Assembly (NCBI GenBank): GCA_944325105.1
Contig: CALUYW010000016.1
Span: 1 to 54,630 of the forward strand
Source: Candidatus Gastranaerophilales bacterium
GTDB taxonomy: Bacteria > Cyanobacteriota > Vampirovibrionia > Gastranaerophilales > Gastranaerophilaceae
Direction of reading: 5' to 3'
DNA: 54,630 nucleotides
Shown here: positions 10,442 through 14,438 of the stretch, piece after piece
How the letters are laid out: each line of letters begins with the position of its first letter
How positions within the stretch are numbered: the stretch's first letter is position 1
Made by a program: the position numbers and the translations under genes
The notes under the pieces: model-generated
What the model was told of the DNA's origin: nothing
Seen by the model: the letters and a program-made list of their open reading frames with translations, nothing else
The model's database searches: none

Positions 10442-10472
10442 TAATAGAATGTCCCAATCGGACATTCTATTA
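10442..10472 (+). promoter_or_regulatory. Perfect 13-bp inverted repeat in rpmG leader
   Basis: TAATAGAATGTCC (10442-10454) and GGACATTCTATTA (10460-10472) are exact inverted copies around a 5-nt loop. No T-run follows, so it is not an intrinsic terminator. It lies between the predicted start and the rpmG ribosome site. It could be an mRNA hairpin (processing, stability or autoregulation) or a dimeric operator. Confidence 0.6.
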
Positions 10473-10511: not shown

Positions 10512-10679
10512 ATGGGTATAAAAGGCAAAAACGACAAGATGGTTGTACTGGCATGCGAAGAATGCAAGGAAAGAAACTATACAACTACAAAAAACAAAAA
10601 AACTCTTAAAGAAAGAATGGAGCTTAGCAAATACTGTCCAAGATGCCAAAGACACACAACTCATAAAGAGACAAAATAG
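10512..10679 (+). CDS. rpmG: 50S ribosomal protein L33
   Basis: I place the start at the ATG 10512, preceded by AAGGAGAAGAA; a longer frame from 10449 overlaps the leader hairpin and is not needed. The 55-residue product has the L33 pattern with two CxxC pairs (CEEC near residue 15, CPRC near residue 43), so it is the zinc-binding form. The basic central part ([15 protein letters not shown]) contacts 23S rRNA in homologues. L33 next to tRNA-Trp, secE and nusG is a widely conserved order. Confidence 0.95.
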
Positions 10680-10688
10680 TTACAGTTG

Positions 10689-10783
10689 TAGTTTAGGTTC
10701 AGTTGCGAGTGGACCGTCGGGTCCGCGATAGTTCAAAATTTGTTCTACCAACTGAACGGGTTGACAAGTTAATAGTTTAGGTT
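10689..10783 (+). repeat. Structured repeats in the tRNA-Trp leader
   Basis: TAGTTTAGGTT occurs at 10689-10699 and again at 10773-10783, immediately before the mature tRNA. GTTCTACCAACTGAAC (10742-10757) is the exact reverse complement of the tRNA-Trp D arm at 10793-10808. Its last nine bases also pair with GTTCAGTTG at 10697-10705. A small GGACC/GGTCC hairpin sits at 10711-10724. The two long pairings exclude each other. Confidence 0.6.
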
Positions 10784-10856
10784 GCGTCCTTAGTTCAGTT
10801 GGTAGAACGTCGGTCTCCAAAACCGGATGTCGAGGGTTCGAGTCCTTCAGGGCGCG
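10784..10856 (+). tRNA. trnW: tRNA-Trp (anticodon CCA)
   Basis: A 73-nt cloverleaf: acceptor stem GCGTCCT (10784-10790) with AGGGCGC (10849-10855), discriminator G at 10856, and D arm with GTTCAGTTGGTAGAAC. The anticodon loop is CTCCAAA, giving CCA at 10817-10819. The T arm has GGTTCGAGTCC. The 3' CCA is not encoded. It lies between rpmG and secE, probably processed from the shared transcript. Confidence 0.96.
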
Positions 10857-10917
10857 ATTTTAAGAATTAACACATTATCGCGAGTAAAATATCCATATTA
10901 AAAATAAGGCAAATATA

Positions 10918-11151
10918 ATGGCGAATATACCACAGAAAAAACAAACATCAGAAAGCAATGCTTCCTTTAAAGAAAGCTTCATAACTTACTTTAAAGGAGT
11001 TAAGGCTGAATGGGGAAAAATCTCCTGGCCTCAAAAAAATCAAATAATATTTGAGACAGGCGTGGTTCTGTTTGTCGTAATTGCTTTTACAATAATTGTA
11101 TATCTTATGGATATTATATTTAAAGGTATATTGGGGCTTCTGCCGCATTAA
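10918..11151 (+). CDS. secE: Preprotein translocase subunit SecE
   Basis: A 77-residue single-span SecE. The conserved amphipathic helix is FKGVKAEWGKISWPQKNQII (residues about 24-43). One membrane segment follows (about 47-70, VVLFVVIAFTIIVYLMDIIF). SecE clamps SecY in the translocon; the secY gene is at 37236. The position before nusG is the canonical order. Confidence 0.96.
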   Translation: MANIPQKKQTSESNASFKESFITYFKGVKAEWGKISWPQKNQIIFETGVVLFVVIAFTIIVYLMDIIFKGILGLLPH

Positions 11152-12360: not shown

Positions 12361-13086
12361 ATGGCAAAATTAACTAAGAAAAAACAAAAAATAAAAGAAA
12401 TGCTCGAAGGTTTCAATCAACCGGCAACAGCTAAGGATGCTATTGAAATGCTTCAAAAAATCTCTAAAGAAGTTTCTAAGTTTGATGAAACAGTAGAAGC
12501 TCACATGAGATTAGGTATTGATGTTAAACACGCTGACCAGCAAATTCGCTCTACCACAGTACTTCCTGCAGGTCTTGGTAAAGAAGTTAGAGTTTGTGTT
12601 ATAGCAAAAGCTGATAAAGCAGCTGCTGCAAAAGAAGCTGGAGCAGATGAAGCAGGTGCTGAAGAAATTATCGAAAAAATTGCAAACGGCTGGTTTGAAT
12701 TCGATACTTTGATTGCAACACCTGATATGATGGCTCCCTTGGGTAAATTAGGTCGTGTTTTAGGTCCTAAAGGTTTAATGCCTAACCCTAAAACAGGTAC
12801 CGTTACACCTGATGTAGCTAAAGCTGTTAAAGATGCTAAAGCAGGTAAAGTAGAGTTCCGTGCCGACAAACAAGGTATGATTCACGTACCCATCGGCAAA
12901 GTTAAATTTTCAACAGAAGATTTGATGAAAAACTTCTCAACTTTAACTGACGCTATTGTTAAAGCAAAACCGTCTGCAGCAAAAGGTACATACATTAAAT
13001 CAATGTATCTTACAACTACAATGGGCCCTTCAATCAAACTTGAACCCAAAGATGTTGTTTCAGAAATAAAAGAACATGTCAGCTAA
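12361..13086 (+). CDS. rplA: 50S ribosomal protein L1
   Basis: A 241-residue L1 with the domain II signature ([19 protein letters not shown]) and [16 protein letters not shown]1 forms the mobile stalk at the E site and in many bacteria represses its own operon by binding mRNA. The hairpins before rplK and rplA are candidates for such control but have not been matched to the L1 site. Its last 11 nt overlap the start of a membrane-protein gene. rplJ and rplL, the usual next genes, are absent. Confidence 0.97.
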
Positions 13087-13570
13087 TTTTATTGAAAAAA
13101 TCAAAGACAGCACGGCGGGGAGACTTATCCTCTCCGTGCTTTCAAATATTTTTAACTATATACACCAAGAGGCGTTTTTTGGAATTTTAAAAAGAGTGGA
13201 TAGAAAGTTTATGAAGTTCCTCTTTGTCGGCGCACTGAACACTGCCTTTGGCTACAGTGTGTATGCGCTTTTTGTTACACTTCATGCCTCTCATAATGTG
13301 GCGCTTACAATTCAGTACATCTTAGGTGTATTTTGGAATTTTAAAACAACGGGAACAATTGTATTTAAAAACCATGACAATAGTCTTATTCTAAGGTTTT
13401 TTCTCTCTTATGTTTTTACTTATTCAATAAACCTTGTTTGTCTGAATATTCTTGTGCGCTTAGGAATAGGCAAGTATTTATCTCAGGCAATTATGGTTTT
13501 ACCGATTGCAATTTTATCGTTTTTAATTTTTAAGACTTTTGTTTTTAGGACAAAACCTCAAGGAGAGTAA
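13076..13570 (+). CDS. GtrA-like integral membrane protein
   Basis: A 164-residue protein with about four hydrophobic spans from residue 45 to 158 ([68 protein letters not shown]). It has the GtrA family start, [16 protein letters not shown], and end, [10 protein letters not shown]. GtrA proteins are thought to help move lipid-linked sugars across the inner membrane in surface glycan modification. It overlaps rplA by 11 nt, with no separate promoter. It lies just upstream of a fucosyltransferase, a sensible partner. Confidence 0.85.
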
Positions 13571-13571
13571 T

Positions 13572-14438
13572 ATGCTAATAATGAGATATAATGGCGGTTT
13601 GGGCAACCAAATGTTTCAATATGCCGCAGTTTTAACTCTTGCGGATAAACTGGGTGTCGATTTTGCTTTTGATATGGACTTTTTTAACAAAAGATACTGC
13701 CGCCCTTGGGGTTTAGGGATTTTTAATGTAGAAAATAAAGAGGTCAATGGCTTAAAATACAAAACCCTTTGGGCTTTAAGAAAATATTTAGGAAAAAAGT
13801 TCTTTGACTTAAATGTTTATGCCGAAAAAGATTTTAACTTTGAGCAAAGATTTGAAGAGATTAAGGACAATACCTATATTTACGGCTTTTTTCAAAGTCA
13901 CAGGTATATAAATCAAGATTTAGCAAGAAAGCACTTTAGCTTTAAAGTTGAACCGGATAAAGAAAATGCTTTAATTTTAGAAGATATAAAAAACTCTGAT
14001 TCAATCTCGCTTCACATAAGACGAGGCGATTATGTTCAAAAGAAGCGCTACGCAAGTATTTACAACCACTTAGATATGAAATATTACAACTTTGCCATGG
14101 AAATAATTGCAAATAAGGTGCAAAACCCTGTGGTGTATGTTTTTTCTGATGATATAAACTGGGCAAAAGAAAACTTGAGCTTTAAAGATTGCCCAATTTG
14201 CCTTAAGAAAAACGCAAGGTTTGAATTTGTTTCACACAACACCGGCGAAAAGTCTTATGAAGATTTAAGACTGATGTCAAACTGTAAGCACAATATAATA
14301 GCAAACTCCAGCTTTTCTTGGTGGGGTGCTTATCTTAACAATAATCCTCAAAAAATTGTTGTTGCACCAAAAAAATGGTTTCAAAAGATTGAAAACAACC
14401 CCTCTGACTTGTATCCTGAGGATTGGACAGTTATTTAA
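13572..14438 (+). CDS. GT11 family alpha-1,2-fucosyltransferase-like glycosyltransferase
   Basis: I start at ATG 13572 (MLIMRYNGGLGNQMFQYA), 4 nt after AGGAGAG; the frame extends upstream only within the previous gene. The 288 residues show the GT11 motifs GGLGNQMFQYA (residues 8-18), YIYGFFQSHRYI, SLHIRRGDYV (GDP-fucose site) and NSSFSWWGAYL near the C-terminus. The family moves fucose from GDP-fucose to galactose in O-antigen or blood-group-like glycans. The acceptor is unknown. It is co-directional with rplA and the GtrA-like gene. The stop overlaps the convergent lipoprotein gene in TTAA at 14435-14438. Confidence 0.93.
   Translation: MLIMRYNGGLGNQMFQYAAVLTLADKLGVDFAFDMDFFNKRYCRPWGLGIFNVENKEVNGLKYKTLWALRKYLGKKFFDLNVYAEKDFNFEQRFEEIKDNTYIYGFFQSHRYINQDLARKHFSFKVEPDKENALILEDIKNSDSISLHIRRGDYVQKKRYASIYNHLDMKYYNFAMEIIANKVQNPVVYVFSDDINWAKENLSFKDCPICLKKNARFEFVSHNTGEKSYEDLRLMSNCKHNIIANSSFSWWGAYLNNNPQKIVVAPKKWFQKIENNPSDLYPEDWTVI

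Follow-up and report, generated by a model that had tools for sequence, protein, structure and literature searches.

A tRNA-Trp leader carrying an antisense copy of the D arm of its own tRNA, and kindred repeats beside tRNA genes in the Gastranaerophilaceae

Why should the leader of a tRNA-Trp gene carry, in antisense, part of the D arm of the very tRNA that it precedes? The question is raised by a stretch of 54,630 nucleotides (here the window, the whole of the DNA analysed: positions 1 to 54,630 of contig CALUYW010000016.1, assembly GCA_944325105.1) from a Candidatus Gastranaerophilales bacterium of the family Gastranaerophilaceae. The original prediction had an exact 16-nt antisense segment, a 9-nt sense copy with which part of it could pair instead, and an 11-bp repeat marking both sense copies, and all three are as described: GTTCTACCAACTGAAC occurs only at 10742-10757 and its reverse complement, GTTCAGTTGGTAGAAC, is 10793-10808, the tRNA-Trp D arm; GTTCAGTTG is present at 10697 and 10793 and pairs with part of the antisense arm; and TAGTTTAGGTT stands at 10689 and 10773. 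By an arithmetic estimate, a 16-nt match between the 104-nt leader and the 73-nt tRNA has a chance expectation of about 2e-6. The locus is laid out as follows.

10512-10679, + strand: rpmG (ribosomal protein L33), the gene upstream of tRNA-Trp; an ORF, named from reading its sequence
10689-10699, + strand: remnant of the first leader copy (TAGTTTAGGTT), from the exact repeat
10697-10705, + strand: sense copy of the 5′ half of the D arm, which is the 5′ strand of helix P1; from sequence match
10709-10726, + strand: inner hairpin P2, with a covarying stem (10709-10715 with 10720-10726); from folding and covariation
10727-10741, + strand: linker GATAGTTCAAAATTT, similar in related units; from unit comparison
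10742-10748, + strand: antisense overhang GTTCTAC, complementary only to the tRNA; from unit comparison and folding
10749-10757, + strand: antisense strand of P1, complementary also to the tRNA D arm; from unit comparison and folding
10758-10783, + strand: tRNA-proximal leader copy with the motif TTGACAA...TTAATA; from sequence and locus comparison
10784-10856, + strand: tRNA-Trp with CCA anticodon, D arm 10793-10808; from ARAGORN and Rfam
10918-11151, + strand: secE, the gene downstream of tRNA-Trp; an ORF, named from reading and gene order

The tRNA-Trp itself is an ordinary gene, and the only one of its kind called, by ARAGORN at 10783-10857 and by Rfam at 10784-10856 with 65.9 bits. The gene order, with names from reading the sequences, is rpmG - tRNA-Trp - secE - nusG, and the unit sits between rpmG and tRNA-Trp, i.e., it has the tRNA-operon location of the repeats that are known in E. 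coli as TLRs. Two minor features of the neighbourhood may be recorded. Between a pilT-like gene and rpmG, at 10443-10471, there is an inverted repeat, AATAGAATGTCC...GGACATTCTATT, without a T run behind it, of which altered versions occur in three relatives within the genus (L005, L008 and L012). Further on, at 13076-14438, it is a GtrA-like membrane protein and a glycosyltransferase-like ORF (names again from reading), not rplJ-rplL, that come after rplK-rplA.

Is the arrangement peculiar to this one leader? At tRNA-Trp, read in 14 genomes of the genus, one or two upstream units are present in 13 (eroded in L015) and none in the remaining one, L008, and several of these genomes have in addition one to three repeats behind tRNA-Trp that are made from the tRNA 3′ end. 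The order within a unit is a copy of the tRNA 5′ end, a variable hairpin body, the antisense arm, a leader of ~25 nt and then the tRNA, and units are often in tandem. The 11-bp repeat represents the final bases of the leader, which is duplicated and stands ahead of each copy of the tRNA 5′ end. The window genome is one in which the acceptor copy between the two 11-bp repeats has been lost (compare L005), and for that reason only 9 sense bases are left in its unit. The overhang of 17 distinct Trp units of the genus is changed at 2 of 119 sites. The unit is absent in L008 and eroded in L015, and most genera of the family are without a unit at tRNA-Trp.

What has been kept within the unit is uneven. 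When the same 17 Trp units are set against the tRNA, differences number 60 in 153 sites for the copied acceptor, 4/153 for the sense arm and 1/153 for the antisense P1 strand. The arms were the anchors of this comparison and the acceptor copy was not, which favours low mismatch in the arms, so the contrast is partly built in, but hardly to the extent of its size. The P2 stem is paired in 96.2% of cells over 15 sequences, and 8 cells show changes in both strands where shuffles give 2.5, none of 500 shuffles being as high. Hairpin arms that are kept beside an eroding acceptor copy, together with an inner stem that covaries, argue from the pattern of substitution that the structure of the unit is maintained, be it in RNA or in single-stranded DNA. 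Gene conversion from the tRNA, had it kept the arms, should have mended the acceptor copy too. Actually, selection at the RNA level also seemed at first to be visible in the strand bias of stem mismatches and of antisense substitutions (19 to 3 for the latter), and was given up as a claim when correction brought it to p=0.06 or weaker: strand-specific pairing, corrected for composition and shared descent, stands at 14 to 3 (p=0.06) and 15 to 7 (p=0.36). The antisense substitutions lean to G-U pairs, not significantly after correction, and no clear strand bias was seen among mismatches of the hairpin stem.

How widely do such units occur? As the arms vary with the tRNA, flanks of tRNA genes were compared directly and not by a single covariance model of the unit. 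Ahead of Val, Phe, Arg, Pro, Lys, Gly, Leu and further tRNA genes of the family there are units as well, each matched to the tRNA that it adjoins. In the window genome, where 36 tRNA genes were found and 30 read, upstream antisense of at least 11 nt to the gene's own 5′ half is present at 11/30, and downstream antisense to its own 3′ half at 4 of the 30; with the pairings swapped, so that upstream flanks face the other tRNAs of that genome, 0/240 reach 11 nt. Over the family (34 genomes and 227 tRNA genes, counting flanks that offer at least 100 usable bases), upstream antisense of at least 11 nt is found at 30/215, downstream at 15/211, and an upstream sense copy of at least 10 nt at 60/215; tRNAs were taken by score, and the Thr-Tyr cluster is therefore over-represented in that sample. 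The corresponding figures are 0/44, 0/44 and 1/44 for other families of the order, 0/27, 1/26 and 0/27 for the rest of the phylum, and 0/162, 0/161 and 3/162 for diverse bacteria, so that upstream antisense of this length is absent from all 233 tRNA flanks surveyed outside the family.

When loci were chosen by tRNA match alone, an antisense arm of at least 10 nt was present at 17/30 for tRNA-Phe and at 8/29 for tRNA-Val, one further Val locus being too short. In five genomes of genus g11 (G136, G173, G189, G203 and G214) the Val D arm takes the place of the Trp arm on a similar body, and a pattern search found their fit to the Val D arm to include one or two G-U pairs; the adjoining tRNA-Val was read in four of them, as the G203 contig stops before it. 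A pattern scan of the named genomes was set aside, its matches being mostly the antisense strands of ordinary tRNA genes. A single tRNA may have units of several designs, e.g., in G005 one Phe design lies distal to another, pointing to repeated origin or to mixed arrays with lost members. At the tRNA-Tyr of the window genome (L031) a 14-nt copy of the tRNA 5′ end stands apart from the gene, with a longer insert in between, and G013 and G007 have something similar.

The repeats on the other side of tRNA genes are mirror images: trailer, T-arm antisense, body and a copied 3′ end of 10-17 nt. In the units displayed with both arms, the antisense extends at least 6 nt deeper into the tRNA than the sense copy does. 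At Pro-GGG the mirror unit lies beyond a terminator-like hairpin, and the idea that repeat boundaries are transcript ends was dropped, as only some 3′ units begin directly after such a hairpin. The period of the units is about 90-130 bp. Have bodies passed from one tRNA gene to another? In G173, 15 of 21 pairs of bodies at different tRNAs are related (p<0.01 by shuffling); in the window genome they are weakly related, 5/36 pairs reaching the same level. The Lys unit of G173 has 8 full-length matches including itself, 3 before tRNA-Lys, 4 before tRNA-Gly and 1 before tRNA-Val, and none away from tRNA genes in the 2.0 Mb of that genome; of its 6 remaining matches, each 15-22 bases long, 5 fall within tRNA genes. 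No copies of the Trp unit were found away from tRNA genes in the window genome.

The closest known kind is the TLRs of E. coli. These have been familiar since 1978, and PMC8144298 states that none had a known function until its own work on the three rRNA-linked ones; it has them adjoining a stable-RNA gene, with an outer end identical to the end of the gene, and present in several copies at different loci (PMC8144298), traits that the units here share. The likeness goes further. In E. coli K-12 the repeats behind tyrT and tyrV combine a sense copy of 19 nt with an antisense arm of 10 nt, the same sense-plus-antisense anatomy on the 3′ side, and the outermost helix of the Rfam RtT RNA (RF00391, tyrT operon) is formed by antisense paired with the copied end, as it is in the units here. 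Antisense is shorter in the argQ/Z/Y/V repeats (an 18-19-nt copy, with antisense of 8 nt for one gene and 5-6 nt for the other three) and does not go beyond 5 nt in the rrfB repeat, whose sense copy is 13 nt. The 5′ units here copy the tRNA 5′ end, that of the window keeping 9 nt, and the 3′ units the 3′ end; most of them lie before the gene, mirror units coming after it, whereas E. coli TLRs are on the 3′ side; the tyrT repeat has a period of 178; and a larger share of the tRNA genes is involved, in a phylum distant from E. coli. RtT (RF00391) gives no match at the gathering score, none at E<=10 in the window stretch and none at E<=0.1 in 10 loci, and among the 26 E. coli tRNA calls examined there are no upstream copies of at least 10 nt. 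For these two reasons the units, though they resemble E. coli TLRs, are not members of the E. coli family. In the E. coli sequence L494, the RtT repeats hold, besides the known 19-nt sense copy, antisense of two parts of tRNA-Tyr, GGGGAAGGAT behind tyrV and GAACCTTCGA behind tyrT. The 5′-end version, the mirror symmetry and the abundance look new: the literature search, with most subscription papers outside it, found no description of 5′ tRNA-linked repeats, and PMC7367389, on tick mitochondria, concerns something unrelated to the 5′ units.

Does the leader then act on the folding of its tRNA? The two mutually exclusive foldings that had been proposed are real as predictions. The 104-nt leader alone folds to the sense:antisense hairpin (-27.1 kcal/mol), and the whole precursor is predicted at -61.6 kcal/mol with the D arm trapped versus -50.5 when the leader hairpin coexists with the cloverleaf. 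As long as the D arm has not been made, the predicted probability of sense:antisense pairing is 0.98, and we infer that P1 would be closed locally ahead of tRNA synthesis. For 51 units the predicted interaction with the own tRNA has a median of -7.9 kcal/mol, against -1.4 with other tRNAs (Wilcoxon p=8e-10).

The original prediction left two readings, a maturation switch or a relic of duplication and inversion, and it is the latter that fits the origin, i.e., tandem partial copies of tRNA ends with an inverted arm at many tRNA genes; for the switch there is evidence both ways. The tRNA-Trp leader is probably one TLR-like unit, a tRNA-end duplication with inversion that is kept as a guard hairpin in a co-transcribed precursor. 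A tRNA end and its flank would have been duplicated outward, the D or T arm being copied in inverted form, tandem duplication would have multiplied the units, and shared D-arm and leader sequences may have let them move between tRNA genes. The unit would be transcribed along with the tRNA, since the ~25 nt that separate the antisense arm from the tRNA are too few to hold a promoter. The antisense strand would close first on the copied tRNA end, giving a self-contained hairpin that may hold the duplicate end and the antisense arm out of the tRNA fold until RNase P removes the leader; the structure could be kept for that reason or for some other. Such duplication and inversion, with the product preserved as a hairpin, has more in its favour than a maturation switch, even if the predicted fold of the whole precursor favours the trapped D arm, for which a simple guard hairpin would have no need, and even if bodies at different tRNAs of the window genome are so weakly related and RtT of Rfam does not match the units.

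In a maturation switch the antisense arm would leave the sense copy for the D arm by strand displacement, and the precursor would stay trapped until released by a signal or chaperone, so that leader folding would regulate tRNA supply. T-box riboswitches are leader RNAs able to base-pair with tRNA in alternative folds, and the leader here could likewise pair with tRNA in alternative folds, although it sits on the tRNA gene itself and pairs with the D arm; Rfam has no T-box match in the window. The greater depth of the antisense arms, the conserved GTTCTAC overhang and a predicted exchange during transcription speak for such a switch. So does the stronger predicted interaction with the own tRNA, except that this is a trivial consequence of the copied sequence. 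The absence of the unit in L008, its erosion in L015, both close relatives, and its lack at tRNA-Trp in most genera of the family count against a switch. Designs differ at the same tRNA, some having the antisense arm locked in a local hairpin (Phe type B), and at Pro-GGG the mirror unit is beyond the terminator-like hairpin. On predicted energies the switch is conceivable, yet rather unlikely. Its family-wide form, in which overhangs would start displacement into the D arm of the own tRNA at 5′ units or into its T arm at 3′ units, and the repeats, spread by repeat exchange, would time or regulate nascent folding and end processing, we consider unlikely. Might the units have no RNA role at all? 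A mobile element, or an integrase with tRNA arms as its site, could have left them as scars or target copies, with hairpins made and corrected on single-stranded DNA. Integrases that target tRNA genes leave displaced tRNA ends, a partial copy of the tRNA end beside the gene, and this much is shared; the units here have an antisense arm and a hairpin body besides, and no element between the copies. The mirror symmetry of 5′ and 3′ units, their target-matched ends, tandem growth beside the tRNA and related bodies at different tRNAs also suit an element of DNA. However, no integrase domain was found in 8 neighbouring ORFs of the 6 loci scanned, the arms have been preserved beside an acceptor copy in decay, and copies away from tRNA genes were found neither for the Lys unit in G173 nor for the Trp unit in the window genome; a DNA-level origin of this sort is quite improbable. 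That the pattern is due to chance or to assembly is barely credible. It is true that nearly all the sequences are multi-contig draft genomes and that several contigs end at arrays, but the same anatomy recurs from genus to genus and in numerous separate assemblies, an 814-kb contig (G173:C1) encloses arrays of three to four units, and the control flanks gave 0/233. Contigs of the family often end in or beside a tRNA gene (G013:C24, G015:C32, G105:C65 and others), as expected if tandem repeats break assemblies, and tRNA counts there may be low.

A family rich in such repeats, at both gene ends, matched to the tRNA and variable among close relatives, is a comparative system, one that could show how the repeats originate, how they move between tRNA genes and whether their antisense arms have any effect on tRNA folding. 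There is also a minor feature of the bodies. Many units at Met, Tyr, Thr and Lys genes (flanks in G019, G105, G087, G173, G086 and G221) have a hairpin with the loop TAAGT or TAAAT on a freely varying stem, and among 109 five-base-loop hairpins in tRNA flanks of the family TAAGT accounts for 16, ACTTA for 6 and TAAAT for 4. A strict orientation, read from TAAGT and its reverse complement ACTTA, was abandoned, as the tRNA-Ala unit of G173 breaks it. The TAAGT/TAAAT loop hairpin could be a binding or recombination signal.
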